Shown in pieces: positions 1,644 through 25,372 of a stretch of DNA of 39,122 bases. Source of the stretch: a virus; the IMG/VR virus record IMGVR_UViG_3300050821_006251, positions 1-39,122 of that record; one strand, given 5' to 3'. How positions within the stretch are numbered: position 1 is the stretch's first letter; every line of letters begins with the position of its first letter. The translations under genes and the position numbers were made by a program. Under the pieces are notes generated by a model. That model saw only the letters and a list, made by a program, of their open reading frames with translations, was not told where the DNA came from and did not search any database.

Positions 1644-1898
1644 ATGTTAAAAGACATGAGCAATCAAAAGATGCCCTCGCGGGGGAGTATGGGTAGTTCG
1701 GGCGGGACTAACGAATCGAAGACCCAGACAGGACCAGGCAACGCGATGCTGGGCAAGAAGCAGCCACCGCCCAAAGACCCCACCTATCGCAAGGGTAGTG
1801 GGACTGACATGAATGCGCCACCCAAGAGCGGGGAGGAGATGTACGAAGACCGCGGCATGGGCATTACTGCGCACGTGCACGGCTCTAAGCGGTGCTAG
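1644..1898 (+). CDS. Hypothetical disordered small protein (84 aa)
   Basis: A good ribosome-binding site (AAAGGA) precedes the ATG at 1644 by a normal spacing; a second ATG five codons in is less well placed. The sequence is low-complexity, rich in Gly, Ser, Pro, Lys and Met, and predicted disordered by eye, ending in HVHGSKRC. Similar Gly/Pro/Lys-rich small proteins occur just upstream of portal genes in many podovirus-like phages, without known function. Its last 14 bases overlap the end of the antisense gene at 1885-2313. Confidence 0.65.
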   Translation: MLKDMSNQKMPSRGSMGSSGGTNESKTQTGPGNAMLGKKQPPPKDPTYRKGSGTDMNAPPKSGEEMYEDRGMGITAHVHGSKRC

Positions 1899-2313
1899 TG
1901 GGTCCTGGGCGCCACCAAAGGCCGACTGCGTTCATAATCGGATTGATGTTCTCCTTAACGAGAATGGTAATTGGTTTTTTCCAACCGTCTTGGATAATCT
2001 CGATTGGTAGATTATCTTCAGGTCGACGCTCCGGTATTCCGTTCCAATAGAGTCCATTCGGCCATGCCAACCATCCAGCATCTACAAAACGCTGGCTTGC
2101 TTCTTCATGGATAGCGCTCCTCATTTCCCTATTGTGTTCTGCCTCCGTTTCAAATGCTTCCTTCCGGCAATCAGGACAATCGTAAGATGGAAATGCAACG
2201 CCGTGCGCGCAGTGAGTATAGCGACGATTTTCTTCCCGATACATCGCCTGCAGTGAAGCGCCAGACACTTCCCGCTTGAAATAGCCAAACCAGTTCAAAA
2301 TCTTCTCAATCAT
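1885..2313 (-). CDS. Antisense hypothetical protein with C-H-C-C zinc motif (142 aa)
   Basis: A strong purine-rich ribosome-binding site (GGGAGGGG) lies upstream of the ATG on the minus strand, which argues this is a real antisense gene. The protein has potential zinc ligands C35, H37, C46 and C49 (THCAHG ... DCPDC), a helical acidic/basic stretch at 50-75, and an aromatic C-terminal half with no family I recognise. It sits between the small disordered protein and the portal gene, overlapping the former by 14 nt. This looks like a moron-type cargo gene. Its function is unknown. Confidence 0.7.
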   Translation of the reverse strand: MIEKILNWFGYFKREVSGASLQAMYREENRRYTHCAHGVAFPSYDCPDCRKEAFETEAEHNREMRSAIHEEASQRFVDAGWLAWPNGLYWNGIPERRPEDNLPIEIIQDGWKKPITILVKENINPIMNAVGLWWRPGPTSTA

Positions 2314-2339
2314 TCGTCTTTCCCCTCCCGTTTAGTTTA

Positions 2340-4610
2340 ATGCCCTTCGAGCCAGAAATCCAGCGCGCCCCGGAACGCCCCACTGCGCCTATCGAGCGTG
2401 CATCCCAGGCCGACCGGGGAGACGACACCGAAGCAGACCCCAAAGGCCCCGGTAGCGCGTGGTTCAGGCGGCTCCGGGAACGCTTCCGCCGCGCCAAGGA
2501 ATACGAGAAAGAACGCCGCGACGTTTTTGATCTATGCGTCCGTAATGTCGCCAATCAACAGTGGACCGAAAAGGAGCTTAAAAACCGGATTAACCGCCCT
2601 AACCCCGTGATCAACATGCTCAAACAGCACTGCGACATTGTGCTAAATGACATGCGAATGAACCGGCCCGGCGCTAAAGTGAGCCCGAAACAGGGCAGCG
2701 ATGACAGCAAGGAGACCGCCGAAGTTATAGAGGGGATGATTCGGGATATCGAATACGCCAGCCGCGCCGACAACGCCTACGACACCGCCGACAGATATCA
2801 AGTCATTGGCGGGTTTAGCTTCTATGGCGCCACGGTCGATTATGTCTCACCGGATTCCCGCAAGAAAGAGATTCGGGTCCGGCGCTTTTCCGATCCCAAA
2901 GCCGTCTACATGGATTGCGATTCCATCGAGATCGACGGAGCGGATCAAAAGTGGTGCTTCGTCAGGCAGAAATTTACCAGAGACCAATGGGTATCGCGAC
3001 TCGGGGAAAAGGCTCGCCAATCATTCTATAGCGCCAACAATTTCTTCGAGAAGGACGACGACAGCCGCGCCGAATACGATCAGTGGATTGGGCAGGACGA
3101 AGGCGGCAAATTCAATTATTTAGCGGAATACTGGGAAATCGAGGAAAAGGATCGGGTTCTCGTTACCCTGAATGATGGGACGGATGTTTGGGAAGACGAA
3201 CTGGTAGGCGATGACCGAAACCAGATCGATATCTCGAAAGAAGCGCTCACCAAAAAGTGGCCGGTGGTCACGAATTACCTGGTTGATGGCGCCCAGATCT
3301 ACGACGAGACGCCTTGGCAGGGCCGCTACATCCCGATCGTACCGGAGTTCGCCGATGAACTCATGGTCGACGGCAAGCGCTCCTTCTTTCCTCTGCCGAT
3401 CTTTGCGCTCGATTCGCAGCAAGCCATTAATTACGTTGCCGCTCTCTGGATTGAGGCGATGTCCCTTATCCCGAAGGGCAAGTGGCACGGCCCAGTCGGT
3501 TCTTTCGCGAGCAAAAACGCTGACTGGCAGCATGCCAATACTTCTACTGTTTCATACCTGGAATGGGACGCGAAATTAGGGCCGAACGGACAACTGTTAT
3601 CGGCGCCGCAGTTTCAGCAACCAACGGTAGACGGCCAAGGCTATGCGATCCAACTCCAGTTCTGGCAATCCGCGCTTATGGCGGCGATTGGGCAGTACCA
3701 GCCATCGACCGGCGCGATTGACCCAGAAGACCGTAGTGGTAAGGCGATTGACCTACTCCAGAAACAGGGTAGTCTCGCGACCAGCTCTTTTGCCAATAAT
3801 TCGGTTCGCGCCAAGTTGCATTTTTATAAGATCCTGATCGACCTGATTCCGCATGTTTACAGCGAAGAGCAGGAAGTTCGCACCATTGGGGCCGACGATA
3901 AGCACGCCGTTGTTTGGATCAACAAGGAATTTAAGGATAAATCCGGCAAGACCAGAGTTCACGATATCGCCAAGGCCGTCCGATATGACGCGATTGTGGA
4001 TGTGGGCCAGAACTACCACGACCTTCGCCAGAAAGCCTTCGATTTTGCGACAAAGATCATGCAGGCTGATCCGCAACTCTGGGCGCGCATTGGTTGGCTG
4101 GCTATCAAATTGGCGGATCTGGGGCCGCTGGGTGACCAGATGAGTAAGTTGCTAGAGCCGGCTGACGTCCAGATGCAGGAACAGCAAGGGATGGACCCGC
4201 AGACAGCGCAGTATGCCGCGATGCTGCAAAAAACAACCCAGGAAGTGCAGCGGTTGTCGCAGATCATCGAAACCAAAAAGGTGGAGGAAGGCGCGAAACT
4301 CGACCGCGAATTAGCTGCGAAGAACATCGATTACCGGATGAATCAGGAAAACAACGACACCAAGGTTAAGGTTGCTCTGATCAGTGCCAAGGCTCCGATT
4401 GCGCAGGCCGTTGCCGAAGCGCAGATCGAACGGGACGATAAGATTCTTGGGTACGCGCATGAGGCTGGTTTAAAATCGATGGATATGGGGCACGAAGTCG
4501 CGCTCAACGCCGCTGACGCTGCGCAAGGTCAGCAGACGCAGCAGTCCGACCAGCAATTCCAAGCGGCGCAGAATCCGCCGGAGCAGGAAGGTGAAGGGGC
4601 AGGGCAATGA
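2340..4610 (+). CDS. Portal protein, P22 gp1-like (756 aa)
   Basis: The length is close to that of P22 portal (725 aa), and the N-terminal third has the family pattern: INRPNPVINMLKQHCD at about residues 84-99, NDMRMNRPGAKVSP at 103-116, then a DNAYDTADRYQVIGGFSFYG-like region. Twelve portal subunits form the ring at the capsid vertex through which DNA is packaged and to which the gp4/gp10 tail parts attach. The C-terminal 150 residues are Gln/Ala-rich and probably coiled-coil, like the P22 portal barrel. No clear Shine-Dalgarno precedes the ATG, which overlaps a TAA as TAATG. The stop forms an ATGA with a following frame. Order (terminase, portal, scaffold, coat) supports the call. Confidence 0.93.
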   Translation: MPFEPEIQRAPERPTAPIERASQADRGDDTEADPKGPGSAWFRRLRERFRRAKEYEKERRDVFDLCVRNVANQQWTEKELKNRINRPNPVINMLKQHCDIVLNDMRMNRPGAKVSPKQGSDDSKETAEVIEGMIRDIEYASRADNAYDTADRYQVIGGFSFYGATVDYVSPDSRKKEIRVRRFSDPKAVYMDCDSIEIDGADQKWCFVRQKFTRDQWVSRLGEKARQSFYSANNFFEKDDDSRAEYDQWIGQDEGGKFNYLAEYWEIEEKDRVLVTLNDGTDVWEDELVGDDRNQIDISKEALTKKWPVVTNYLVDGAQIYDETPWQGRYIPIVPEFADELMVDGKRSFFPLPIFALDSQQAINYVAALWIEAMSLIPKGKWHGPVGSFASKNADWQHANTSTVSYLEWDAKLGPNGQLLSAPQFQQPTVDGQGYAIQLQFWQSALMAAIGQYQPSTGAIDPEDRSGKAIDLLQKQGSLATSSFANNSVRAKLHFYKILIDLIPHVYSEEQEVRTIGADDKHAVVWINKEFKDKSGKTRVHDIAKAVRYDAIVDVGQNYHDLRQKAFDFATKIMQADPQLWARIGWLAIKLADLGPLGDQMSKLLEPADVQMQEQQGMDPQTAQYAAMLQKTTQEVQRLSQIIETKKVEEGAKLDRELAAKNIDYRMNQENNDTKVKVALISAKAPIAQAVAEAQIERDDKILGYAHEAGLKSMDMGHEVALNAADAAQGQQTQQSDQQFQAAQNPPEQEGEGAGQ

Positions 4611-4834
4611 ATTTCTTCCTAAGGCTTCCCCACCGCTCTTACTTTAGCCTGATAATTTGCGGCTATGACATTGTTTGCGATCAACGGGTAAAATTTTTGA
4701 TCTGCATCGGGTTTAATCGTTCGGATTGGGCCTTTGTTAAGATCGGCGCTTTACTGGACGGTTGGTGGTGCGATACGCTGTGGCGTGGGAAATATAGGCA
4801 GAATCACCATTTCCCTGCACGGGGAGCCGCATGA
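4607..4834 (+). CDS. Doubtful small ORF (75 aa) after the portal gene
   Basis: This frame begins with an ATGA overlap on the portal stop and ends with an ATGA overlap on the next start, a perfect coupled arrangement. Against it, the product is unusually rich in Cys, Trp, Phe and Ile, as antisense readings of real genes often are, and no ribosome-binding site is clear. The opposite strand of the same stretch has a more natural-looking but interrupted reading frame (see 4619-4810). I cannot decide between the two. Confidence 0.3.
   Translation: MNFFLRLPHRSYFSLIICGYDIVCDQRVKFLICIGFNRSDWAFVKIGALLDGWWCDTLWRGKYRQNHHFPARGAA
4619..4810 (-). pseudogene. Possible broken antisense gene interrupted by one TAA
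   Basis: On the minus strand an ATG at 4810 opens 19 codons to a TAA. The same frame continues for 43 more codons with natural composition (for example KFYPLIANNVIAANYQAK) before a TAG at 4619-4621, 8 nt from the portal stop. This resembles the other antisense cargo genes here, which end on top of the upstream gene's stop. A nonsense mutation in a decaying cargo gene would explain it. The alternative is that the + strand frame over this stretch is the gene. No family is recognised. Confidence 0.25.
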
Positions 4835-5076
4835 ACGAAATCCGCGTTGGCGACATCGTTCAGCACGGCAACGCCTACGGCAAGGTCAAGAAGGTCGATA
4901 ACGAGCTTATCGACATCACACTGTTGAGCAAGAAGGAAACTAAAGCGGAGTTAGCCGAGATTGCCTTTCGCGAACGCCTCGCCGCGCTCTGCTACAACGC
5001 CGTGCGGCACAAGAAGGTGATCTTGGTTCATGATCCCAACCCATTGACAGAACGGGATCTGGCAAGCAGGCCATGA
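4831..5076 (+). CDS. Hypothetical small protein with SH3/KOW-like start (81 aa)
   Basis: GGGGAG lies about six bases before the ATG, a clear ribosome-binding site. Residues 4-32 (VGDIVQHGNAYGKVKKVDN) look like a small beta-barrel of the KOW/SH3 type, common in phage proteins that bind nucleic acid or other proteins. The rest is helical. The stop overlaps the next ATG as ATGA, starting a chain of three coupled small genes between portal and scaffold. The function is unknown and the fold is inferred from pattern only. Confidence 0.7.
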   Translation: MNEIRVGDIVQHGNAYGKVKKVDNELIDITLLSKKETKAELAEIAFRERLAALCYNAVRHKKVILVHDPNPLTERDLASRP

Positions 5077-5285
5077 CGGGATTCTTGGATATGAACGGAC
5101 ATCGGATTGAATTTATTGATCCGAACCAAGTACAGATCGGCAAAAATGGGATGTATTGCTATGCCTGTAACACGGCCTATTGCGGATTTAGCCATGTATG
5201 CCCGGAAGTAAACGGTCAAGACCGGCCCATTAGGGGTGCGTTACGGGGCCTTCTTGGGATGGGCTCTATTGGTGGAAATTTATGA
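5073..5285 (+). CDS. Small Cys-rich protein (70 aa)
   Basis: The gene is coupled by ATGA overlaps at both ends. Cysteines at 29, 32, 37 and 43 (CYAC ... YCGFSHVCPE) suggest a compact zinc-binding knuckle following a short beta N-terminus. The C-terminal 20 residues are Gly-rich. I do not recognise the family. Its place in a tightly coupled run with the preceding and following small genes suggests co-expression with the head genes. Confidence 0.65.
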   Translation: MTGFLDMNGHRIEFIDPNQVQIGKNGMYCYACNTAYCGFSHVCPEVNGQDRPIRGALRGLLGMGSIGGNL

Positions 5286-5557
5286 CTTCTTACCGAAAGG
5301 TTCAGCCAAAGCAACTCGGTGCTGTCGTGGATTGCGGCAAGTTTCGCGATCTCGAAATCGCCAACGTGCCGACCGTCCAGTTATCCGAAAACGTCACCTT
5401 TCCGACCGAGGGGACCCAGTATCATCGGCACATTCAATCTCCGCTGAACATGACGGTTGGAGAGCAAGAGAATTACACGCTTGAGGATTATCGCGAGTGG
5501 AAGAAGGACGCGGAGCGGACGGCGAAGGCGCGCGGGATTTCGATAAGCCAGCTCTAA
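5282..5557 (+). CDS. Hypothetical protein (91 aa)
   Basis: The ATG overlaps the previous stop and is preceded by GGTGGA at good spacing. The protein is mostly polar: a beta-like region (residues 10-45), TYHR-like polar segments, then a helix ending in a basic stretch (WKKDAERTAKARG, about 73-85). No catalytic or membrane signature is visible. Its TAA stop shares CTAA with the stop of the antisense gene at 5554-5754, the same convergent geometry seen at 543-546. Confidence 0.65.
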   Translation: MTSYRKVQPKQLGAVVDCGKFRDLEIANVPTVQLSENVTFPTEGTQYHRHIQSPLNMTVGEQENYTLEDYREWKKDAERTAKARGISISQL

Positions 5558-5754
5558 TCTAAGCATTGATGGGTGGCGTACTTGTAGCAGGTCTCGCAGA
5601 GCCATCCGTCTAAATCAACGAAAAACCTCACCATATTAGGTCGTTTACATGAGCGGCACACCTGTCCGTCATCGCGAAGCGTAATTATCCGCCCCGATAT
5701 TTTATTCCTTGGCTCATCGCGCTGGAAACGAAGAGTTATTCCGTTTTCGCCCAT
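5554..5754 (-). CDS. Antisense zinc-ribbon protein (66 aa)
   Basis: Two CxxC knuckles 16 residues apart (C33/C36 in CRSC and C53/C56 in CETC) form a classic zinc ribbon, the main reason to believe this antisense frame. An in-frame TAG lies upstream of the ATG, so the start is well bounded, though the ribosome-binding site is weak. It fills the gap between the coupled small genes and the scaffold gene and converges with the former by a 4-nt stop overlap. Zinc ribbons of this size often bind nucleic acid or proteins; no specific role can be assigned. Confidence 0.6.
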   Translation of the reverse strand: MGENGITLRFQRDEPRNKISGRIITLRDDGQVCRSCKRPNMVRFFVDLDGWLCETCYKYATHQCLD

Positions 5755-5823
5755 AGACCAATTCTAAACGATTTCGCCCTGCCGAGCGTATCGGCAAATC
5801 TCAGAAGGAAACTGTAAACCAAA

Positions 5824-6966
5824 ATGCCCGATGTAATCCAAACTATCACTGTTGACGCGCCCGCCAAGGTGCCCGTTGATGTGGTAGCCCACGAAGCCGA
5901 TATTCCCGACCTTGAAACCTACAGGGCCGCGAAACAAGGCGACTGGACGCCGCCCGTCAAGGAAGCCAAAGCAGCCGAGACAGCGACAGCCCAAACGGAA
6001 ACTCCTACCGAAACAAAACAGGTGAGTGAAGGCGAAGAGCCTTCATCCGAGGCGAAAGCCCAAGCGGACTCAGTTACGGAAACTGAGCAAACAGAAACGA
6101 CTCAGGAAAAGGGCGACGAAAAAGGCAAGAAGAGGAATCCGATTGCCCCGCGGATCGACGAGTTAGTCAAGCAGCGAGATATCGCGCGTGACGAAAACCG
6201 CCAACTCAAGGCGAAAATTGAGGAACTCGAAAAACTCCCGCAAGCCCCTGCCATCCCAGACACAGGCGAACCCAAAAAGCCAGCCCGGCCCAAAGCGCCC
6301 AATCCGCTCGATGAAAAGTTCAAGACCACCGCAGAATACAACGTGGCCCATGAGCAGTACGAAAAGGATTTGGACAAGTACGAGACCGACTTGCAGGGCT
6401 TCAACGACTTCCACCGCTCAAAAACACAGCGCGAAGAGGCCGTCAAGCAGCAAGAGGCCGCACTCAAGCAAAGATTTGGCGCAACGATAGCCAAGGCCAT
6501 CGAGGACAACCGGTTCGGCGACGACTTTAAGCCCTACGGAGAACCCCAAAAAGGAGGCCCACCCGTGAGCAAACTCATGACGACCTTCCTTCCCCGCTTG
6601 GAAGATCCAGCCGCCATCTTGTACTATCTGCAAAAAAACCCTACGTTTGCGCAGTCTTTGCACGATGTGTTCGATGGTCCCGCAAAGGATGCTTCCTCCG
6701 AACAGCGGGACATCGTGCTGTATCAACTGGGTCGGCTCGATGGGCTGCTGATCGGGACCGAGAAAGCCGCGAAAGCGACGGCCAGGGCAGAAACGACAAC
6801 GCCAAAGCCACCAACGCCTCCTGAGAACAAAGTAACCACCAAACCCCCGCAAAAGCCCCCCGTTACGCTCAATGGATCTTCCGGTGAAGTTCCCGTCAAA
6901 AAACTTACGGACGCCGCAGATCAAGACGAGTATCGACGCCTCAAAAAGGCTGGCGCTGGGCTCTGA
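5824..6966 (+). CDS. Head scaffolding protein, P22 gp8-like role (380 aa)
   Basis: The protein is highly charged, Glu/Lys/Gln/Pro-rich and mostly disordered or helical, with coiled-coil-like segments at about residues 108-140 and 165-220. It ends in a short basic helical tail (DEYRRLKKAGAGL) of the kind that binds coat protein in P22-type scaffolds. Scaffold guides coat assembly into the procapsid and then leaves. Its place directly before the coat gene is the usual one. An AGAAGG lies rather far (about 14 nt) from the ATG. Scaffolds diverge strongly, so the call rests on composition, length and order rather than on conserved residues. Confidence 0.82.
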   Translation: MPDVIQTITVDAPAKVPVDVVAHEADIPDLETYRAAKQGDWTPPVKEAKAAETATAQTETPTETKQVSEGEEPSSEAKAQADSVTETEQTETTQEKGDEKGKKRNPIAPRIDELVKQRDIARDENRQLKAKIEELEKLPQAPAIPDTGEPKKPARPKAPNPLDEKFKTTAEYNVAHEQYEKDLDKYETDLQGFNDFHRSKTQREEAVKQQEAALKQRFGATIAKAIEDNRFGDDFKPYGEPQKGGPPVSKLMTTFLPRLEDPAAILYYLQKNPTFAQSLHDVFDGPAKDASSEQRDIVLYQLGRLDGLLIGTEKAAKATARAETTTPKPPTPPENKVTTKPPQKPPVTLNGSSGEVPVKKLTDAADQDEYRRLKKAGAGL

Positions 6967-6984: not shown

Positions 6985-8190
6985 ATGGCGGATAGCATTC
7001 TCACTAACAAAATCGTGACGTTTGAGTCGATGGAGCTTCTGCTGAACGACTTGCAGATCCCCAACAACATCAACACCGATTACAACGATCAATTCGGCCA
7101 AGAAGGGGCTAAAGCCGGCGATACGATTCAAATCCGTATCCCGTATCGCTCCCTGGGTCGAGACGGTCAGGCTGTCAATATCGAGCCCCTGACCGATCTA
7201 TCCACTCCGCTTTCCCTTAACATGCAGTTCGGCGCGGATGCGCAATTCGGCTCAGCCGAAATGTATACGTCGCTCGACAACATGCGGGATCGCTACCTTC
7301 GTCCGCAGATGGAGCAGATCGCCAACAAGGTTGACCGCTCTCTCCATATCCTGATGGCATCGACCTGCAACAATGTCGTCGGGACCCCAGGAACGGCGAT
7401 CACATCGCTCGCAACCTATCTGGCCGCCAAGACCAAGCTGAAGCAGAATCTGGCGATCGGCAAGAAATTTCCTTTGGTCCTGAATAGCCAGCAGGACTCT
7501 AACATCGTTCCCGCGCTTACCGGGTTCCTGAATCCGCAACCCGAGATTTCGGAACAGTACATCTTTGGCGAAATGCGGAGTGCCGTGGGCTTCGGCTGGA
7601 TGGAGTCTGAAAACGTCGTCATCGCGACGGTCGGGACCTATGGCGGTTCTCCGGTGGTCAATGGCGCGAATCAAGTTGGTTCCAACCTCATCACCAATGG
7701 TTGGTCCAGCGGCGCCACGTCGCTTGTTATGGGCGATGTGTTTACTGTGGCGGGCGTCTATATGGTGAACGCGCAAAACCGTTCATCGATCGGCGTCCTA
7801 CAACAATTTGTTGTTACCGCTCCCGTGACTGATACGGCTGGCGCTATCACGATTCCGATTTATCCGGCAATTGTGACCAGCGGGCAGTATCAAAACGTCT
7901 CCGCTTCGCCCGCGACTGGCGCGGCGCTGACAATGTGGGGGACCTCCGGCACCAACACTACCCAGGCCCTCGCATTCCACCGCAACGCCTATACGCTTTG
8001 CTGGGGGAATCTCGAAATGCCCGGCGGCATCGATCAGGGCTGGCGCACAACCGACAAAAAGACCAAGGTCTCGCTCCGCTTTGTGCGCGACTACATAATT
8101 CAATCCGATCAGCGCATCAGTAGGTTCGATGTATTGATGGGGGCGGCACCACTTTACCCATTTTGGGCTGTTCGCTGTGCGTCCAATTAG
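6985..8190 (+). CDS. Major coat protein, P22 gp5-like with I-domain (401 aa)
   Basis: AGGAGA precedes the ATG at good spacing. Length and pattern match the P22-type coat family: an N-terminal arm, a helical region with DNMRDRYLRPQMEQIANKVD (about 98-117), and an insertion (I-) domain beginning near residue 250 with GDVFTVAGVY ... LQQFVVTA ... YQNVSASPATGAAL, then a C-terminal HK97-fold strand region. The I-domain stabilises the subunit and controls assembly in P22. Two further proteins in this window, encoded on the other strand at 10187-10405 and 11746-12219, repeat this I-domain pattern. Confidence 0.93.
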   Translation: MADSILTNKIVTFESMELLLNDLQIPNNINTDYNDQFGQEGAKAGDTIQIRIPYRSLGRDGQAVNIEPLTDLSTPLSLNMQFGADAQFGSAEMYTSLDNMRDRYLRPQMEQIANKVDRSLHILMASTCNNVVGTPGTAITSLATYLAAKTKLKQNLAIGKKFPLVLNSQQDSNIVPALTGFLNPQPEISEQYIFGEMRSAVGFGWMESENVVIATVGTYGGSPVVNGANQVGSNLITNGWSSGATSLVMGDVFTVAGVYMVNAQNRSSIGVLQQFVVTAPVTDTAGAITIPIYPAIVTSGQYQNVSASPATGAALTMWGTSGTNTTQALAFHRNAYTLCWGNLEMPGGIDQGWRTTDKKTKVSLRFVRDYIIQSDQRISRFDVLMGAAPLYPFWAVRCASN

Positions 8191-8214
8191 GGTCGGAGGC
8201 AAGCGAGTAATTAT

Positions 8215-8541
8215 ATGACACATACCCATCACACCCATTTTGTCCATTACGGGACCCACAAGGCGGCCATTGTGACCGCCGAACACGAAGACGGCTCGGT
8301 CGATCTCGTGTACTTCAACGGAGGCTCTGACGGGACTCCGCACGCGGCGGTTAAGGTAAAGCACGATCTACTCGGCTCGGATGGCAGCTTCCATCACCAT
8401 CACGAGCACGCCGAAACGCTCTCTACTTACGCGCATGATTCCGAGAAGGAACAGGCGGCAAAAGAGGCGAAGGCTGAAGCGCGGCGCAAAGCGGTCGCCA
8501 ATGCTCAATCAGGGACTCCCGCAGAAAAGGAGGTTGCTTAA
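8215..8541 (+). CDS. Histidine-rich hypothetical protein (108 aa)
   Basis: The N-terminus carries MTHTHHTHFVHYGTH and a later FHHHHEHAET (about 59-68), so the protein is strikingly His-rich and could bind metal. A GGAGG lies about 15 nt before the ATG, farther than usual. The middle is beta-like (AAIVTAEHEDGSVDLVYF), the C-terminal third a charged helix of Glu, Ala and Lys. Its position directly after the coat gene suggests a head-associated role, but no family is recognised. The stop overlaps the next start (TAATG). Confidence 0.7.
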   Translation: MTHTHHTHFVHYGTHKAAIVTAEHEDGSVDLVYFNGGSDGTPHAAVKVKHDLLGSDGSFHHHHEHAETLSTYAHDSEKEQAAKEAKAEARRKAVANAQSGTPAEKEVA

Positions 8542-9263
8542 TGTCCAACATTCTTCAATCCACAACGCTCAGCCAGAACATGGGCGGCGCAGAGGTCGCT
8601 GTCGGCATCGGGGTAGGCATCCAGCTTATCAACGTGGCCGCTTCCCCCACTTCCGCCCTCACCGTTCCATACATGATCTTCATCGACAATGAATTGATGA
8701 CGGTCGTTTCGGACAACGGCTCTGGGCAGCTCGGCGTTGAGCGCGGGGCGGCTGGTACGCGGTTGCACCCGCATCTGAATGGCGATACCGTTTGGATGGG
8801 ACTTCCGGCTTGGTTTGATGCGAATCAACCCGGCCCGGCCATCACTACGGTAGGCGGCGGCGGATTGCTAAACAGCCCGCAAATCAGCGCGGGCAGCGCC
8901 TACAATCCGCCCTTCATCATGACCAATCCAGGTGGCGCCGGGACACAGATCAACTATTGGTTTCCATGGAAGGCAGAAGCGCCTAACTTTGCGGTGACCA
9001 AGATCCTAACGGGGAACTATGCCGCCCTCGTGACGGACTTTATCATCGAGTACACCACCCTTACTGGTGCCTCTCAAGTAACCTTGCCGGCGGTAACCGC
9101 CGTCCCGCAAGGAAAGGCATTCATTATCAAGGATGGGGCCGCGGCGGCCGCTTCTCACACCATTACGATCTCCCCCAATGTGGACGGGGCATCGTTGACC
9201 ATCACCACCAACAATGGCTCTGCGCGCGTCTATAGCGACGGCGCGGCGTACAAGGCTTGGTAA
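8541..9263 (+). CDS. Probable minor structural protein, beta-rich (240 aa)
   Basis: A strong AGGAGG precedes the ATG. The N-terminal 90 residues have a small beta domain ending in VERGAAGTRLHPHLNGDTVW (68-87), a pattern seen in several phage structural proteins as xVxRGxxGTxxxxHxxG. The C-terminal 100 residues resemble a fibre-like domain ending in NGSARVYSDGAAYKAW, a common last strand in phage fibre and knob proteins. It lies between coat and adaptor genes and is followed by an intrinsic terminator. A head decoration or fibre is likely; which one is not determinable. Confidence 0.72.
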   Translation: MSNILQSTTLSQNMGGAEVAVGIGVGIQLINVAASPTSALTVPYMIFIDNELMTVVSDNGSGQLGVERGAAGTRLHPHLNGDTVWMGLPAWFDANQPGPAITTVGGGGLLNSPQISAGSAYNPPFIMTNPGGAGTQINYWFPWKAEAPNFAVTKILTGNYAALVTDFIIEYTTLTGASQVTLPAVTAVPQGKAFIIKDGAAAAASHTITISPNVDGASLTITTNNGSARVYSDGAAYKAW

Positions 9264-9266
9264 ACT

Positions 9267-9440
9267 TCAGCGGGGAGTTTTAGGATTCCCCGCTTCTTTT
9301 GTATTGGTTGGCCAAACGAAATATTCGGCATCAACTTTCAATACAGGTAAATCGGCAGGTACTTTGTTTGGCCGACAATCTATAGTGGTATTGGCGATTT
9401 TTGAAGTACCTGTGGAAGACAGGGTTGTTTTTGTTTTCAC
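9267..9440 (-). CDS. Possible antisense small gene (57 aa)
   Basis: On the minus strand a GTG at 9440 opens 57 codons to a TGA at 9267-9269, three bases from the stop of the upstream + gene. The composition is natural (for example DLPVLKVDAEYFVWPTNT). It fills the gap between two + genes just as the other antisense genes do. A GAAGGG touches the GTG directly, so the start is poor. Its last codons overlap the hairpin annotated as a + strand terminator. No family is recognised; treat as a candidate. Confidence 0.35.
   Translation of the reverse strand: MKTKTTLSSTGTSKIANTTIDCRPNKVPADLPVLKVDAEYFVWPTNTKEAGNPKTPR
9269..9300 (+). terminator. Intrinsic terminator after the coat/minor structural genes
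   Basis: A perfect 8-bp stem pairs AGCGGGGA (9269-9276) with TCCCCGCT (9287-9294) around a 10-nt loop, followed by TCTTTT on the + strand. It lies six bases after the stop of the 8541-9263 gene. It may reduce read-through from the highly expressed coat transcript into the tail genes. The T-tract is less suitable on the opposite strand. Confidence 0.75.
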
Positions 9441-9462
9441 CCCTTCAGTTTAAAGGAATTTT

Positions 9463-9963
9463 ATGGCAATTGACATGAATATAATGGGTACACCGGTCAC
9501 TCCGGACATGATCCGAAGGACCATCCGGCAGTGGCACGGCGCCAACCAGACCAACGGAGAAACGCTGGCGCGCAAGATCCTGAATGTTCCCGAGGATCAG
9601 AACCTCCCCGCCTATCGGATCGAACAGAACCAGTGGCCGACTCTCGTTTACCATCCGCAATTTCGTTCCCACATGATCGAAGAAAATCCGATGGATGAGC
9701 GGACCCAGGCGCGGTTCCTGAAGAAAGCGCGTAACCAGGCGGAACTTGACGATCTGCTAAAGCGCGGCTGGCTTTTGAAGGCACCTGTCGCGATGAACGA
9801 CCAACCCCCGGCAGAACTGATGCCGGATGACGAGTTTGAGCCGGATTCGCCTTACGCGGCGGCATCAAATGACGATGATTTAGTGGGCGTAGATGCGGCA
9901 CCAATTCAGAAGCGGCGCGGCCGGCCTCCAGGTTCCGGTAAGCATTCGGATGACGCGACTTAA
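9463..9963 (+). CDS. Hypothetical protein with C-terminal AT-hook-like motif (166 aa)
   Basis: AAAGGA precedes the ATG. The N-terminal 110 residues are helical and charged with no clear family; residues 110-148 are acidic and disordered. Near the end, KRRGRPPGSGK (150-160) matches the AT-hook core RGRP, which binds the minor groove of AT-rich DNA. It sits after the coat region and before the gp4-like adaptor, so a role in capsid DNA organisation or head completion is possible but only inferred. The TAA stop shares TTAA with the stop of the antisense gene at 9960-10187. Confidence 0.7.
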   Translation: MAIDMNIMGTPVTPDMIRRTIRQWHGANQTNGETLARKILNVPEDQNLPAYRIEQNQWPTLVYHPQFRSHMIEENPMDERTQARFLKKARNQAELDDLLKRGWLLKAPVAMNDQPPAELMPDDEFEPDSPYAAASNDDDLVGVDAAPIQKRRGRPPGSGKHSDDAT

Positions 9964-10187
9964 CTCTCCAGTGCTAACCTGATCCTTTTGTCGCATTCGG
10001 AAATTACCCTCGCCGTATCCCAATAGCAACCAAATCCGCAAGCGCGATATCTGAGCCCAACGGTTTCGCTGTGGGAGCACCGGCCCGTGCCGGTGGAATC
10101 ATTCGGCACACAACCAGGACACGTATAAGGACCGAGAAGTTGGATTAAGTTTTCGAGTTCAGTTTGGATTCGCAAATATTCTTTCAT
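9960..10187 (-). CDS. Antisense Cys-rich small protein (75 aa)
   Basis: The ATG overlaps the stop of the upstream minus gene as TGATG, so these two form a small antisense operon. Cysteines at 23, 26, 37, 50 and 54 (TCPGC, RCSH, RACGFGC) suggest metal binding after an N-terminal helix. The 3' end overlaps the + gene end by four bases. It resembles small phage proteins of unknown function. No specific family is recognised. Confidence 0.6.
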   Translation of the reverse strand: MKEYLRIQTELENLIQLLGPYTCPGCVPNDSTGTGRCSHSETVGLRYRACGFGCYWDTARVISECDKRIRLALES

Positions 10188-10405
10188 CAGATACCGTCTA
10201 CATCGAACGGGAATGGCTCATAGGCGGAAAAACTTTCCGTTTGCGCCGTCACGATGAACCTTTGCAAAACCAGCGGCAATTTTTCGCGGCGCAGAAAGGC
10301 TAGAAACCGTCGCCAGCGCGAATACCTCACGTGCCGGCCCGCAATAGTGAATATGTCGCCGACGCGCATCGCAGCGTTGCGGAATACGGGATCGTCGATC
10401 ATCAA
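10187..10405 (-). CDS. Small protein resembling the start of a coat I-domain (72 aa)
   Basis: A strong AAGGAGG precedes the tandem ATGs at 10405/10402 on the minus strand. Residues 14-25 read RVGDIFTIAGRH and residues 47-56 LQRFIVTAQT. These match GDVFTVAGVY and LQQFVVTAPV of the coat protein's I-domain in the same order, with a basic, different stretch between (SRWRRFLAFLRREK). The protein lacks the second half of the domain (YQNV ... PATGAAL). It may be a minimal or degraded stand-alone I-domain. The function is unknown. It is co-transcribed with 9960-10187. Confidence 0.65.
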   Translation of the reverse strand: MMIDDPVFRNAAMRVGDIFTIAGRHVRYSRWRRFLAFLRREKLPLVLQRFIVTAQTESFSAYEPFPFDVDGI

Positions 10406-10809: not shown

Positions 10810-11754
10810 ATGCCTTATATCCTGCAAGATTTGCTCACCGACGCGCTGCTGGAAATCAACAAGATTTCCGTGTACGACACCATTAACGCGAAACAGGCTG
10901 AGATTGGGATGCGGCGGGCGAATCTGTGGCTTGACTCGCAAAACGCGGATCTGATGAAGGTTTGGCAGGAAGTGCCGAACGTCTTCCCGCTCTCCAGTCA
11001 ACAAAGCTACGCGATGGGGGCAGACCAGACTCTGCCGAACTTCCAGATGCAGCGACCCAGCAAGATCACGAAAGTGAATCTATTGCTGAACAACAATAGC
11101 GGAGTGAGCCCAACACGCACACCGATTAAGATGCTGAATTATCAGCAGTGGGGCGCGCTTTCGGTCCCGAATGTCCCGGCGGGGTATCCGGTCTACTGTT
11201 ACTGGGATAATGCCGATCTGCTTTCGGCCCCAAGCACGGTTACCGCTGGGCTTTTCCTGCCGAGCAGCACCTACACCATCGTGAGCGTCGGCACGACCAA
11301 CTTCATGGCGATCGGGGCGGCGTCTAATACCGTTGGGGTTGTGTTTGTCGCGACAGGTATCGGTAGTGGAACGGGCACGGCGCTATCGACTGGCGGCGTC
11401 CCGTACTCGAATATTTCCTTCTGGACCGATCCGGGGCAGAATCAATCGGTTGAGATTTGGTGCTGGAATCAAGCGCAACAATTCACGGCGCTGAACAACG
11501 TCATCACTTACCCGAACGGATGGGCACGGTTCGTGCTGTTGGGGATGTCTATCGAGTTGGCGCCAGCATTCGGGTGTGAACCGTCGCCTACAACGATGAA
11601 GAATTTTTGGAAGGCCGAGCAACTAGTGAATGGGCTGAATGCGCCATCGCCACTCGCCGCATGCGCGGCTGGCTACCCAGGCAACACCAATACGAGCAAT
11701 TTTAACATCTACTCGGGGGATGACGGAGCGGGCTCGTGGCCACCTTCATCCTGA
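10810..11754 (+). CDS. Head-to-tail adaptor, P22 gp4-like (314 aa)
   Basis: The N-terminus has the helical adaptor pattern seen in P22 gp4-type tail accessory factors: ALLEINKISVYD then RRANLWLDSQNADL, followed by a region with RPSKITKV and PIKMLNYQQWG. It lies between coat and gp10-like genes, as in P22, where gp4 forms a 12-mer ring under the portal. At about residues 144-195 there is an inserted module (YTIVSVGTTNFMAIGAA ... TATG-like) known as a stand-alone piece in many phage structural proteins. The end overlaps the antisense gene at 11746 by nine bases. Confidence 0.82.
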   Translation: MPYILQDLLTDALLEINKISVYDTINAKQAEIGMRRANLWLDSQNADLMKVWQEVPNVFPLSSQQSYAMGADQTLPNFQMQRPSKITKVNLLLNNNSGVSPTRTPIKMLNYQQWGALSVPNVPAGYPVYCYWDNADLLSAPSTVTAGLFLPSSTYTIVSVGTTNFMAIGAASNTVGVVFVATGIGSGTGTALSTGGVPYSNISFWTDPGQNQSVEIWCWNQAQQFTALNNVITYPNGWARFVLLGMSIELAPAFGCEPSPTTMKNFWKAEQLVNGLNAPSPLAACAAGYPGNTNTSNFNIYSGDDGAGSWPPSS

Positions 11755-12219
11755 TTCGCCGTATAACTTATCGAATCTATTGTCCGTAAAAGTAAAGTCG
11801 CATTCAATGTTGTCACCGATTCTGAATTGTTTCAACTTGGCTCCTTCGGGGGGCAACTTCTCAACATTTTGGTATGGACCTGCCGCTATCATCGCGGGGA
11901 ATATGTCGATAGTTGTCGCGGATCCGTCCGATTCGACCGCCCTGGTAACCACGAATTGTTTCAGAAATTTCTGCCCATTCGGAGCAACGGCAACCTTCCC
12001 TGTATGCGGGCTGATTTGGAACACGCTCTCGATGGAAAATATGTCACCGGGAGTTAGTTTGCCCTGGAAGCCTTTGACAAAAAGTGTACTGGCTTGGGTA
12101 CTGACAACCTCTGGTGCTATGGTCTCCACAATCACTTCTTTAGTAATGGCCGGAGCAACGAAGGCGGCACCAGCCGCAGCAGCTAAGAAGCCGAGAAATC
12201 CACGCCGGGTAGTTTCCAT
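11746..12219 (-). CDS. Tat-exported stand-alone coat I-domain-like protein (157 aa)
   Basis: The N-terminus is a textbook twin-arginine signal: TRRGFLG at 4-10, an alanine-rich hydrophobic stretch to about 22, and a possible APA cleavage site at 22-24. The mature part carries GDIFSIESVFQIS (58-70), KQFVVTRAV (87-95) and PYQNVEKLPPEGAKL (115-129). These match, in order and spacing, GDVFTVAGVY, QQFVVTAPV and QYQNVSASPATGAAL of the I-domain in the coat protein. In known P22-like phages this domain exists only as an insert in coat. Export of a coat-domain mimic suggests a periplasmic or surface role such as interference, but this is inference. The start lies 9 nt from the divergent GTG at 12229. 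Confidence 0.8.
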   Translation of the reverse strand: METTRRGFLGFLAAAAGAAFVAPAITKEVIVETIAPEVVSTQASTLFVKGFQGKLTPGDIFSIESVFQISPHTGKVAVAPNGQKFLKQFVVTRAVESDGSATTIDIFPAMIAAGPYQNVEKLPPEGAKLKQFRIGDNIECDFTFTDNRFDKLYGESG

Positions 12220-12228
12220 TTATCTATT

Positions 12229-13707
12229 GTGCCACTAAAGCAACAACTCAAGGATTTCCCTGGAGTAATTGGCCCCACTGGGACCGGTCTCGCGCCAGCC
12301 TTCGACTCCGAGATCGCGATGAACCTGACGACGGAGCGCGCGAACACCAACGCCAAAGCGCCGATCTACTTCAAGAACGTCCCCGGTTTCTACAAAAATG
12401 CGCTTAATCTGGTGAACCTTGGCTCTGGACTGAATCAGTCATCCATCTACATCAACGGACGAACTTTCGCGATCGCGTCAAATCAATTTTGGGAGATCAC
12501 CGGCAGTTCGATCACCGGCCTATCTTCCATCTCGTGGGGAAACCTCCCAACCCTAACGGCTCCCTATTGGAGCATCGCGGTCAATATCCGCGGCGCCCAG
12601 ATTCTGATGGCTGGCGGCGGCCAGTCTTTTCTTTTCATCCTCGCGACCAATACACTGGTTCCGGTCGTTACCCCGTTTCCACTCTCAATCGTCGATGAAA
12701 GCGACGGTTATTTCATCGGGCTTGATGCGACCGGAAGCGGCGAGTTTTGCATCTCTAATTACAACGATGGGACCGTTTGGAATGCTCTTAACTTTGCCTT
12801 CGAGCAATCGCCAGATCTCACCACGGCTTTCAAGGTCGCCCACCGGGTGCTGTGGCTATTCGGCGACAATCACACGGAGCCCTATGTTGATTCGGGCAAT
12901 GCGAATTTCCCCTTCACGCCTGACCAAACGACCTACATCAACAGCGGCATCATCGCGCCTTATTCGCTCGTTGTTTGCGATAACACGCTTTTCTATTTGG
13001 GTAATTCATCGGGCGGCCCGAACACGCTTTATCGGCTTACTGGGGCCACTCCCCAGCGCATTAGCACCCACGCCTTCGAGACGGCAGTTACTGGCTATCC
13101 CAAAACGTCTGATGCTTATGCCTATCGCTATTCGGAGAACGGGCACGAATTTTACGTGATTCACTTTCCGAGCGGTAACGCGACTTGGGTCTATGACTGC
13201 TCCACGGGCATGCTGACGCAGCGCGGCGTTTACAACTCCGTCACGGGCGAGTACGACATCTCTTGGGACAGATTCCATGTTTGGGTACCGCTGCTCAATG
13301 CTCATTTGGTTCAGGATTATCGCAATGCAAACATCTATGCGCGAAGTGAGAACTATTTCGATGGTGGGGATCTCGGCCGCTGGATGCGCCGATTCCCCCA
13401 CTTCAATTCGGATCAGGTGTCCTGGGACTACCACAAACTAAGGCTCATCATGCAAACCGGCGTCAACGGGCAGTTGCCACCGGATTATCAACCATCCGTG
13501 CAATTGCGCCGTTCTTTCGACGGCGGCTACACTTGGCAGCCAAACATCATCGACGGGTCAAGCGGACAGACGGGCCAATATATCAGACACGTCGATTTTG
13601 ACGATCTAGGCAACGCGAAAGATATGGTGTTTGAGTGGAGTTCGGCGGATGCCACTCCCGTGGTTTTGATCGGGGCGAAGTTGAGTGCTACTCCATGTTT
13701 CAGCTAA
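12229..13707 (+). CDS. Packaged-DNA stabilisation / tail hub protein, P22 gp10-like (492 aa)
   Basis: The gene starts at GTG 12229; the next in-frame ATG (codon 31) would cut into conserved sequence. Family patterns include NAKAPIYFKNVPGF (41-54), FCISNYNDGTVWNALNFA, VLWLFGDNHTEPY, TPQRISTHAFE and EFYVIHFPSGNATWVYD, typical of gp10-like beta-propeller hub proteins with repeated blades. In P22, gp10 caps the gp4 ring and prevents DNA leakage. The order gp4-like then gp10-like supports this. The 9-nt gap to the divergent antisense start leaves no room for a separate promoter. Confidence 0.9.
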   Translation: MPLKQQLKDFPGVIGPTGTGLAPAFDSEIAMNLTTERANTNAKAPIYFKNVPGFYKNALNLVNLGSGLNQSSIYINGRTFAIASNQFWEITGSSITGLSSISWGNLPTLTAPYWSIAVNIRGAQILMAGGGQSFLFILATNTLVPVVTPFPLSIVDESDGYFIGLDATGSGEFCISNYNDGTVWNALNFAFEQSPDLTTAFKVAHRVLWLFGDNHTEPYVDSGNANFPFTPDQTTYINSGIIAPYSLVVCDNTLFYLGNSSGGPNTLYRLTGATPQRISTHAFETAVTGYPKTSDAYAYRYSENGHEFYVIHFPSGNATWVYDCSTGMLTQRGVYNSVTGEYDISWDRFHVWVPLLNAHLVQDYRNANIYARSENYFDGGDLGRWMRRFPHFNSDQVSWDYHKLRLIMQTGVNGQLPPDYQPSVQLRRSFDGGYTWQPNIIDGSSGQTGQYIRHVDFDDLGNAKDMVFEWSSADATPVVLIGAKLSATPCFS

Positions 13708-16412: not shown

Positions 16413-16958
16413 ATGACCGAAATCGTCATTGATAACTTCCTGGAATTCCCCGAGGAATACCGCGAAGCCGCGCTGAAGCTCGATTACAAAACCTTCGAGT
16501 TCCCGGAATGCACGTTTCACGGCATTGCGCTGGGTGGCCCATCCATGCAGGGAGTCGAGCGCATCGTCAAGGGGTTTCCCGTCTTACAGCCAACCATGAC
16601 TTTCTTTCGCAAGAGCCCCAAAGGTCAGGTCGAGCCGCATTACATTCACAGCGACATCGACATGGGGCAATGGTCAGCCATTCTGTATCTAAACCCTGAG
16701 CCTCCAGTGAATGATGGCACGGCATTCTGGACCCACATCGCGAGCGGGGCCATCGAGAGTCACATTCCGCACGAGAGATCGGATGAGGGCCGGGAGCCCG
16801 AGAAGTACTTCTGTCAGCGGAAGTTAGTGGAGGCGCGATTTAATCGCCTATTACTGTTCCCGTCCTCATTCTTTCATTCGCGTTCGATTCATGAGAACTG
16901 GGGCGAAGGCGATCAGGCGCGGCTGACGCAGGTCACTTTCGGAAGGTTTAGGCAATGA
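16413..16958 (+). CDS. 2OG-Fe(II) oxygenase-like protein, DUF6445-type (181 aa)
   Basis: The pattern VEPHYIHSDIDMGQWSAILY (73-92), GTAFWTH (102-108) and NRLLLFPSSFFHS (144-156) with RLTQVTFG (170-177) matches the DUF6445 group of 2-oxoglutarate/Fe(II) dioxygenases. Likely iron ligands are H79, D81 and H155, with R170 holding 2-oxoglutarate. These enzymes hydroxylate proteins or small molecules. It follows ACP and GNAT genes, so a modification cassette is plausible. The stop overlaps the next start as ATGA, tying it to the ejection-protein genes. The substrate is unknown. Confidence 0.8.
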   Translation: MTEIVIDNFLEFPEEYREAALKLDYKTFEFPECTFHGIALGGPSMQGVERIVKGFPVLQPTMTFFRKSPKGQVEPHYIHSDIDMGQWSAILYLNPEPPVNDGTAFWTHIASGAIESHIPHERSDEGREPEKYFCQRKLVEARFNRLLLFPSSFFHSRSIHENWGEGDQARLTQVTFGRFRQ

Positions 16959-17869
16959 GCGTCGGGGCATCAATCGGTACGGCCTTGGCTATCGGAGGCA
17001 TTGCCAGTGCCGGCGCAGGTTTAGCCAGCGGAGTAATCGGGGCTGGGGCCAGCAAGAGCGCGGCCCAAACCGAGGCCAATGCTTCTGAGCAGGCTACTCA
17101 GCTCCAGCAGCAGGAATTTGAACAGCAGCAGCAGAATCTTGCGCCCTGGCTAGCGGCGGGGAAAGCCGAACTCCCAACACTGCAAGCTGGTATCCAACCG
17201 GGTGGCCAATTCAATCTGAATTATGGGACATTCGCAAGCCAGTTCCCGAATACCCCGACAAGCTTTACGGCGCCAACTGCGGAGCAGGCCGCGCAAGCCC
17301 CAGGCGAACAGTTCCTGGTTGAGCAAGCCAACCAAGCCTTGCAACGCTCTCAGGCCGCCACGGGCATTACGGGGGGTGGCGCAGCAAAGGCCATCAGCCA
17401 ATACAATGAAGGGCTCGCATCGACCAATTACCAGAACGTGTACAACAATGCACTGCAAGGCTTCAATACAAATCTTGGGGCGGCCCAGAGCCTCTATGGT
17501 CAGGGCTTCAATGTGGCGGCTTCGCAGATCGGCCAGAATTACAATGAGGCGGCGGGATTGACCGGAATCGGCCAGACAGCAACCCAGCAGTTAAATCAGG
17601 CTGGACAGAATTATGCCAACAATGCGGGCAATCTCTTGACGTCGGGAGCAAGCGCTACTGCTGCGGGGCAAGTTGGGGCGGCGAATGCCTACACGAATGC
17701 CCTCAGTGGTCTCGGAAATTCAGCGAGCAATGCGGCGCTCTATAGTCTCCTTGGGCAATCCAGTTTCGGCGGTGCTAACCCGCTGCCAGGGTCGTTCGGT
17801 TCGCAGATTGGCCAAGCGGGAATCGGACAGATTATCGGCGGAATTAATGGAATGAGCGCACCAGCATAA
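16955..17869 (+). CDS. Probable DNA transfer/ejection protein (304 aa)
   Basis: The N-terminal 35 residues are Gly/Ala-rich and hydrophobic, followed by a Gln-rich coiled-coil region with EFEQQQQNLAPWLAAGKAEL (50-69) and a long Gln/Asn/Gly/Ala-rich remainder. This is the usual look of small internal ejection proteins next to the tail genes of P22-like phages (the role of gp7, gp20 or gp16), which leave the capsid with the DNA and form a channel across the envelope. It is ATGA-coupled to the oxygenase gene. Function is inferred from composition and order. Confidence 0.75.
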   Translation: MSVGASIGTALAIGGIASAGAGLASGVIGAGASKSAAQTEANASEQATQLQQQEFEQQQQNLAPWLAAGKAELPTLQAGIQPGGQFNLNYGTFASQFPNTPTSFTAPTAEQAAQAPGEQFLVEQANQALQRSQAATGITGGGAAKAISQYNEGLASTNYQNVYNNALQGFNTNLGAAQSLYGQGFNVAASQIGQNYNEAAGLTGIGQTATQQLNQAGQNYANNAGNLLTSGASATAAGQVGAANAYTNALSGLGNSASNAALYSLLGQSSFGGANPLPGSFGSQIGQAGIGQIIGGINGMSAPA

Positions 17870-23812: not shown

Positions 23813-25372
23813 ATGTCAAAATTCCTACTCATATTCGCTCTTGTTATTCCATGCTTTGCCGTTTCTCCCGATTGTTCGACCACCATCCAGTTCACCAATG
23901 ACCCCACAATTCAACCGAACGGCTCGACGATCATAGCGCTTAATGGAGCCCCGGCCCCGCCCATCAACAACAATCTTGGCGGTTCTTCGTGTCAGGCTTG
24001 GACCTTTCTTTATGCGTTTTCTGGCGTCACTTCGTCATCGGTCGAAATCGATGCCGCTAGCGCTCTGAGTGGCCCCTATACGCTTTGGCCCGGTGCTGTC
24101 AATTATGGGTCCAACCCTTATCAGCAAAACATCAATGCTTATGCCAATCTGACCGGCACCTTTAATTATCTGCGGTTTGCGGTCAAGTATGTGACGGGCA
24201 CGGGCACGATCACAATCCAAGCGTTCGGCTGGATCAATTCCGCAAACGTGGGGAGCATCCTCAATTATCCAGCCCGCGGCGGGGGCGGTGGGAGTGCCAC
24301 ATGGGGCCTAATAACTGGGCCTATTTCCGCCCAAACCGATCTTCAGACTTTGTTGGCCACTAAGCAAAACAATCTCAGCCTAACGACTACTGGGCCATGC
24401 GTGGCATCCACTTTGGTAGGTGCGGTCCTGAATATTCCGGTTTGCACGGCAGGAACCGGCACCGTCACCAGCCTAACGTTTTCGCCGCCTTTGACGGGCG
24501 GGACCATCACAACTAGCGGAGTTGTAGGGATGCCGGCGGCCACAAGTTCCCAGAATGGCTACCTGGCCAGCGCTGATTGGACGACGTTTAACTCGAAACA
24601 AGCTGCCCTAACACTTCCCGGCAGCGTGACGTCGGGTGACATCGCGTTGTTTGGGGGCACCCCACTAACATTAACGGATTCTCTGAAGTCATTTTTGGGT
24701 ACCGGGGCAAATGCTACCCTGACTACCGGCGCGCGCACTACTGGCCATGCCCTGCAATGGGATGCTAGCAGCAATGTCGTGGATGCCGGATTCACAGCCC
24801 AGCCAGCCGGGAATTACTTGACAGCGCTCACTGGCGATGCTGTCGCCAGCGGTCCAGGTTCATCGGCGCTCACTCTGGCTAGCGTCAACAGTAATGTCGG
24901 GACGTTCGGAGATTCCACGCATTGCGCCTCCTTCACTGTTGGGTTAAAGGGCTTGATAACGGCGGCTAGTCAATCGACCTCATGCCCGGGCGGCGGTGGA
25001 GGATTTTCACCCTCGCCAGCAGCGAGCGATAACACAATTTTATTTGGCCTGGCCAGCGGATACGGATTCGGGACGACTGGAGGAAGCGGAGCGCTCTGTA
25101 TTGGGACGGCTTGCTCTGGCGGAGTGGATGGAACGATTGACATTGTGACTGCTGTTGTCCCGCGTTTGGCGGCAGCCAATACCTTCACGGGTGGCAATAG
25201 CTTTGCGGCTTCGCCATTTGTTAAGCCTGTCACTGTGGGATCGACCGCACCTCCATGCGCCGTAACTGGCGATGAAGGTAATGCTTGGCTGGACACGACC
25301 TCCGCCACCGCCAACCATTTCAAGATCTGCGCCGAAGTTTCCAGCACCATCGGCTTCCAGACTATTTTCTAA
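23813..25372 (+). CDS. Exported tail fibre with repeat shaft (519 aa)
   Basis: A signal peptide (MSKFLLIFALVIPCFA) is followed by a domain of about 130 residues that is strongly similar to the start of the next gene (QFTNDPTIQPNGSTI, APAPPINNNLGGSSCQAW, YGSNPYQQN, FGWINSANVGSILNYP). Downstream are common phage fibre repeats: NGYLASADWTTFNSKQAA, LTGDAVASGPGS, ASVNSNVGTFGDSTHCASFT. It likely forms a trimeric fibre. GAAAGAA precedes the ATG. The N-terminal domain shared with the neighbour suggests both attach to the same tail site. Confidence 0.82.
   Translation: MSKFLLIFALVIPCFAVSPDCSTTIQFTNDPTIQPNGSTIIALNGAPAPPINNNLGGSSCQAWTFLYAFSGVTSSSVEIDAASALSGPYTLWPGAVNYGSNPYQQNINAYANLTGTFNYLRFAVKYVTGTGTITIQAFGWINSANVGSILNYPARGGGGGSATWGLITGPISAQTDLQTLLATKQNNLSLTTTGPCVASTLVGAVLNIPVCTAGTGTVTSLTFSPPLTGGTITTSGVVGMPAATSSQNGYLASADWTTFNSKQAALTLPGSVTSGDIALFGGTPLTLTDSLKSFLGTGANATLTTGARTTGHALQWDASSNVVDAGFTAQPAGNYLTALTGDAVASGPGSSALTLASVNSNVGTFGDSTHCASFTVGLKGLITAASQSTSCPGGGGGFSPSPAASDNTILFGLASGYGFGTTGGSGALCIGTACSGGVDGTIDIVTAVVPRLAAANTFTGGNSFAASPFVKPVTVGSTAPPCAVTGDEGNAWLDTTSATANHFKICAEVSSTIGFQTIF

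Follow-up and report, generated by a model that had tools for sequence, protein, structure and literature searches.

A stand-alone coat I-domain with a predicted Tat signal, and related Tat-tagged coat fragments, in P22-like phages

We analyzed a stretch of 39,122 bases, an IMG/VR virus record referred to here as the window, whose plus strand carries a P22-like head module (Table 1). The prophage coats closest to the window coat by identity (44-45%) are those of Candidatus Sulfopaludibacter sp. SbA3 and of an Acidobacteriaceae MAG; because the nearest coats belong to these two, the host of the window phage is likely to be acidobacterial. The phage may be temperate, as hinted by an HTH protein and an IrrE-like peptidase encoded close to the right end. 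Within the structural module, the ORF at 16413-16958 (+), which matches PHROG 1644 'minor coat protein' (E=6e-23) and also gives DUF6445 / 2OG-Fe(II) oxygenase-like matches, looks like an enzyme-like protein. Five plus-strand late proteins (14048, 23813, 25272 from 25383, 28268 and 29586) begin with strong Sec-like signals and a sixth (21503) with a weaker one. All six look like tail fibres or spikes, the one at 25272 having C-terminal GDSL-lipase and K1-lyase domains, and the late proteins with Sec-like signals contain 6-20 cysteines versus 0-4 in the head, connector and ejection proteins. Together, these signals and cysteines suggest that receptor-binding parts fold extracytoplasmically. Several proteins of a related phage, G001, carry similar signals, and at loci L055, L067 and L157 the coat is often followed directly by a gene with a Sec-like signal, which is absent from the relative of that gene in the window (8541-9263).

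Table 1. Features of the window, followed by Tat-tagged genes of other P22-like phages (numbered within the locus named)
Feature	Position	Strand	Basis or context
Portal	2340-4610	+	PF16510 E=4.8e-110
Scaffold-like protein	5824-6966	+	
Own P22-like coat	6985..8190	+	PF11651 E=1.9e-28
I-domain within own coat, residues 224-346	7654..8022	+	
Second small antisense ORF, 72 aa, strong Shine-Dalgarno, GDIFTIAG...LQRFIVTA, without signal	10187..10405	-	coat HMM
P0001, putative Tat-tagged stand-alone coat I-domain, 157 aa, ATG start	11746..12219	-	ORF, homology, fold
P0001 I-domain, residues 44-140; core 44-132 confident, six-strand barrel	11800..12090	-	pLDDT, VIA-align
P0001 linker, signal to domain, residues 25-43	12091..12147	-	low pLDDT at linker start
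Predicted Tat signal of P0001, residues 1-24 (TTRRGFLG, hydrophobic stretch, APA ahead of linker)	12148..12219	-	TIGR01409
CACAAT, -10-like hexamer, 6 nt ahead of P0001 ATG	12226..12231	-	read from the sequence
Head-closure protein	12229-13707	+	
Ejection-type protein	16955-17869	+	
P0003, begins METTRRGFLG	L003:498-1094	antisense to structural genes	phage G001
P0008	L230:3292-3720	coat strand	phage G476
89-aa Tat gene (L157-Tat)	L230:6001-6270 = L157:920-1189	coat strand	phage G476
L079-Tat	L079:173-559	coat strand	beta-proteobacterial MAG prophage

P0001 lies antisense between two plus-strand genes, with a 9-bp convergent overlap with 10810-11754 and a start 9 bp from the GTG of 12229-13707. 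Neither P0001 nor P0003 of phage G001 has a clear Shine-Dalgarno sequence, and in both a -10-like hexamer (CACAAT and TACAAT, respectively) stands six bases ahead of the ATG, an arrangement that would possibly fit leaderless transcripts. A sigma-70 promoter scan around P0001 returned no promoter. Farther left, the antisense ORF at 10187-10405 adjoins another at 9960-10187 (-). The former scores 10.9 bits (E=0.16) with the coat HMM in the ranking of all ORFs given below, and 6.3 bits against a maximum of 3.5 in 2000 shuffles, values only suggestive of another I-domain piece.

A preliminary description of this DNA had seen the order of coat I-domain motifs in the antisense protein. That order is real: the motifs of P0001 are collinear with those of the coat at 6985-8190 (GDIFSIESV with GDVFTVAGV, QFVVT with QFVVT, YQNV with YQNV, and P..GA.L), and BLASTP aligns the two proteins at 31% identity over 117 aa (E=1e-13). 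Comparison with a profile of three coats in hhalign yields P=1.2e-8. P0001 also matches PHROG 283 'major head protein' (E=0.0015). Of its matches listed in a tblastn search of INPHARED (best E=1e-3), those that are not coats are unnamed genes occupying the corresponding position in sister phages. With an HMM built from 44 coats, P0001 scores 59.1 bits, while 2000 shuffles of the same body reach at most 6.0, so the profile match is far above chance and indicates that the frame is coding. The coat homology and this score rule out that P0001 is a shadow of the plus-strand ORF at 11639-12238. P0001 gives no PF11651 match and its coverage of the coat HMM is restricted to 229-319; it consists of signal, linker and I-domain only, the domain not being an A-domain insert as in HK97-fold coats of the P22 type, and is without the HK97 core (A- and P-domains) of the PF11651 coat.

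The AlphaFold model of P0001 was built on an alignment of 45 I-domain segments that included coat I-domains, so it is not independent of the homology. Its core, a barrel of strands at about residues 40-132, is predicted with a pLDDT of about 90 (85-92 per block over 41-130, and about 88-91 for 51-130); confidence is low in the signal and in residues 136-157. The top PDB match of the model in Foldseek is the CUS-3 coat I-domain (E=5.9e-4). In VIA-align, the top eleven rows are all P22, Sf6 or CUS-3 coats or I-domains (Z 8.6-11.5), nine of them confined to about residues 222-352, and the next row falls to Z 6.8. P0001 covers P22 residues ~223-352, and the P22 coat I-domain comprises residues 222-345 (PMC9965877). 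The model and the alignment agree on fold and homology, and the structural comparison proposed in the preliminary description returned the I-domain fold, indicating that P0001 is the whole I-domain and no other part of the coat. P0001 is thus almost certainly a stand-alone coat I-domain, as judged from alignment and model. T5 pb9 shares the general fold with P0001 (Z ~6.6 in VIA-align). The I-domain region of the coat is matched by PHROG 1302 'distal tail protein', which is absent from the matches listed for P0001.

The N-terminus of P0001, METTRRGFLGFLAAAAGAAFVAPA, scores 21.5 bits with TIGR01409, over the NCBI curated cut-off of 16.7, which upholds the earlier reading of a twin-arginine signal; with Pfam TAT_signal it scores 12.8 bits, below the cut-off of 22.7. 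Tat targeting of P0001 is therefore probable, its export being predicted from the Tat motif. Among the Tat-tagged genes compared with TIGR01409, P0001 alone passes the cut-off: the others score 12.6-16.1 or are unlisted, and P0003, P0008 and the 89-aa gene each fall under it. TatC was found in three hosts of the nearest related prophages.

The branch of P0001 is 1.9 changes per site long and does not lie beside the window's own coat, a placement that is unsure; on this basis we rejected a recent duplication of that coat. Stand-alone I-domains were found neither among 84 further IMG/VR I-domain matches (82 coats and two contig-edge pieces) nor in the 396 genomes searched from the phylum of G005 (two matches, in frames of 410 and 467 aa), and none is named in BFVD, where the top named matches are capsid proteins and three short entries are nameless. 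Beyond their own contigs, IMG/VR showed nothing related to P0001, P0003 or the 89-aa gene, and P0001 is known from one sequence, without a close relative. P0001 appears to be an I-domain that is both old and free-standing, and no other free-standing one turned up in these searches. A coat paralogue of 317 aa without an I-domain (L269, G005:C6:429724-430215; HMM 8-212 and 324-398) lies about 26 kb from the Sulfopaludibacter prophage coat.

An IMG/VR search with P0001 reached one contig, G001, by the signal alone and thereby P0003; the exact pattern METTRRGFLG also occurs in IMG/VR on that contig only. In a scan set of 311 P22-like loci (4.1 Mb, 21,498 unique ORFs), a Tat-like regular expression hit 50 ORFs, many of them spurious; Tat-like starts are rare in the set, and P0003 was missed by the filter because of its lysines. 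The ORFs were also ranked with an HMM of 178 coats, contig-edge coat pieces and one I-domain-less coat paralogue being left out. P0001 is the best non-coat ORF (68.1 bits) and P0008 the second (25.6 bits, E=5.8e-6); the 89-aa gene scores 12.2 bits (E=0.068) and P0003 10.7 bits (E=0.19), and after the top five the scores begin at 9.3 bits and fall. Tat-like starts are present in four of these five (all but window 10187), and the order was the same after removal of the coats of the window and two phages (3 of 178 rows, picked by id). Such a concentration of Tat-like starts at the head of a coat ranking would not be expected by chance. The Tat-like ORFs L113, L302, L305 and L238 gave no coat signal. 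P0005 (L012:4935-5249, -), a second Tat-like gene in G001 that starts MNLSRRSFFGLLTASAA..., was considered as a condensed connector and dropped (hhalign P=0.008 over 14 columns, no coat signal).

The body of P0003 resembles N-terminal and C-terminal parts of the coat and scores 13.9 bits with the coat HMM (E=0.019; maximum of 3.0 in 2000 shuffles); the coat of G001 itself is 42% identical to the window coat. The AlphaFold model of P0003, which had coats in its input alignment, matches HK97-fold shells weakly (P22 procapsid, Z 8.1, rmsd 5.8; nothing below 1e-3 in Foldseek), so that the predicted fold is supportive of a coat origin and not decisive. P0008 is matched more strongly, its body scoring 25.8 bits where the best of 5000 shuffles reached 7.3, and both P0008 and the 89-aa gene match the coat of their own phage in BLASTP (E=2e-5 and E=3e-5, respectively). 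L079-Tat scores only 4.7 bits with the coat HMM, yet this is above all 5000 shuffles, and it pairs with P0008 (BLASTP E=8e-9 over 68 aa). An HMM of the P0008 and L079-Tat bodies retrieves coats next, from E=6.3e-5 and mostly in two collinear segments; with P0003 included, coats follow from E=1.4e-5. In coat HMM numbering, which is close to window-coat numbering, P0008 spans 58-115 and 348-385, P0003 spans 41-119 and 375-390, and the 89-aa gene spans 8-24 and 104-125. When P22 domains are assigned as in PMC9965877, P0003, P0008 and L079-Tat appear to be E-loop/P-domain pieces without A- or I-domain, and the 89-aa gene appears to be an N-arm plus spine helix. The 89-aa gene and P0003 are the weaker members, placed by two collinear short matches and reciprocal profiles. 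The A-domain is present in none of the five Tat-tagged coat pieces.

P0001 is thus probably one of about five Tat-tagged 'mini-coats' in four P22-like phages, a grouping drawn from records that are metagenomic and partly fragments. The preliminary description had proposed a search for Tat-linked I-domains in other phages. We found no second Tat-tagged I-domain in the searches above, but three other phages carry Tat-like tags on other coat parts; because they do, the tag does not appear to be tied to the I-domain, and the original frame seems too narrow. The cultured relatives PAE2, PBR31 and MW202674 have no Tat mini-coat. In tblastn against INPHARED, P0003 and L079-Tat gave no match and the 89-aa gene one (E=10); among 399 genomes from the order to which G406 belongs, a further search returned G406 itself only; and PADLOC models matched none of P0001, P0003, P0008, L079-Tat and L157-Tat at E<=0.1.

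The mini-coat genes differ in setting. On one strand of G476 (56 kb) lie, in order, terL (1837-3279), P0008, portal (3829-5847), the 89-aa gene, a scaffold-like gene (7333-8373) and the coat (8383-9576); the names terL, portal and scaffold were given from position and resemblance, not from a family search. In its prophage, L079-Tat is found upstream of a terL-portal-scaffold-coat series. The Tat genes of the window and of G001 run antisense to structural genes.

The cytoplasm is where capsid proteins are synthesized and put together, and Tat-tagged pieces of them have no obvious textbook place. P0001 is like the I-domains of the P22, Sf6 and CUS-3 coats in sequence family and six-strand barrel but differs in being free-standing, in a separate antisense gene and behind a Tat signal; the other copies found sit in coats. 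It is like Tat substrates (TIGR01409) in its twin-arginine motif, hydrophobic stretch and AxA-like site, whereas its predicted cargo is a viral capsid element and not an enzyme. SaPIbov5 Ccm, a capsid-derived assembly modulator, resembles the mini-coats as an extra coat-like protein besides the coat, but it works within the capsid shell, while the mini-coats are fragments without an A-domain and with export tags; 7rwz, among the structure-comparison matches, is presumably tied to Ccm. Superinfection-exclusion proteins are small, envelope-directed phage proteins, as P0001 is predicted to be, although we know of none that is a coat fragment. Among capsid decoration proteins, phage L Dec is likewise a small beta-barrel phage protein (PMC6449081), and P0001 could perhaps bind capsids too. 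Unlike for P0001, no coat origin or export signal is described for Dec in that source. A limited literature search for Tat plus capsid found nothing on point regarding Tat-tagged capsid proteins, which does not itself prove novelty.

We consider that P0001 might well be an envelope-directed coat mimic, a long-diverged, folded I-domain copy that the host Tat machinery would take to, and probably across, the cytoplasmic membrane, within a loose class of mini-coats for which interference or a decoy role would be most likely. That role is tentatively judged the likeliest function of the mini-coats in general. Each would keep a piece able to contact coat, scaffold or a coat-recognizing factor; the fragment would bind a competitor's coat or scaffold, or a host factor that recognizes coat, and the Tat tag would hold the bound partner at the membrane or export it as a hitchhiker. 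Tat can carry untagged partners (PMC4273604), and the bacterial defence protein CapRel is triggered by a phage capsid protein (PMC11578894). Since Tat carries untagged partners and bacteria sense capsid protein, a coat piece with a Tat tag could serve to take away a partner that binds coat. In its most specific form, this proposal is quite improbable: a distinct class of Tat-exported mini-coats would capture coat, scaffold or a host factor that senses coat while still in the cytoplasm and take it away by hitchhiking, so that phage-phage or phage-host interference would be derived from the phage's own capsid gene. For P0001, export, binding and interference are what we infer, and its divergence from the window's own coat would be as expected under selection for another partner. 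Counted against interference are the scores under the TIGR01409 cut-off for signals other than that of P0001, and the position of the G476 and L079 Tat genes: these share the strand of the coat and sit inside or next to the terL-portal-scaffold-coat block, a placement that also suits a role in the phages' own morphogenesis.

Such a role could take the form of an assembly tether, in which an uncleaved Tat-like segment anchors in the membrane and the mini-coat faces the cytoplasm, docking the phage's own coat, scaffold or procapsids at the inner membrane. To our knowledge, P22 manages without any such protein; moreover, the window and G001 genes are antisense to the structural genes, and P0001 has an APA site suited to cleavage. 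Besides the gene positions in G476 and L079, the 89-aa gene speaks for a tether in retaining the N-arm, P22's scaffold contact (PMC9965877), and we regard this explanation as rather unlikely overall. Somewhat less likely still is that P0001 is an exported virion component, which would leave the cytoplasm in folded form so as not to poison the assembly of coat there and would decorate finished capsids once the cell has lysed, within a broader use of extracytoplasmic assembly by these phages. The coat I-domain is located on the outer surface of the capsid, and the Sec-like signals and cysteine contents of the late proteins of the window would agree with such assembly, but E-loop/P-domain and N-arm pieces belong to the lattice or the inner face and would make poor decorations. 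Least probable is a class without coat-related function, made of diverged coat fragments captured by chance behind Tat signals or, for the weaker members, of convergence: the 89-aa gene and P0003 are singly weak and, like P0001, lack IMG/VR relatives, but this leaves unexplained P0001, with its 59-68 bits and intact barrel, and P0008, as well as the Tat-like starts that top the coat ranking and the reciprocal profiles that retrieve coats.

With an envelope-directed coat mimic as the preferred reading of P0001, what is new is the architecture, an export signal joined to a coat fragment; the function may belong to a known class. If real, the mini-coats would represent a viral use of coat domains, and of Tat, that is new. 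Roles for isolated coat domains in exclusion, counter-defence and membrane-linked assembly would become testable, and names would become available for small phage genes whose present annotation is Tat-signal or hypothetical protein.
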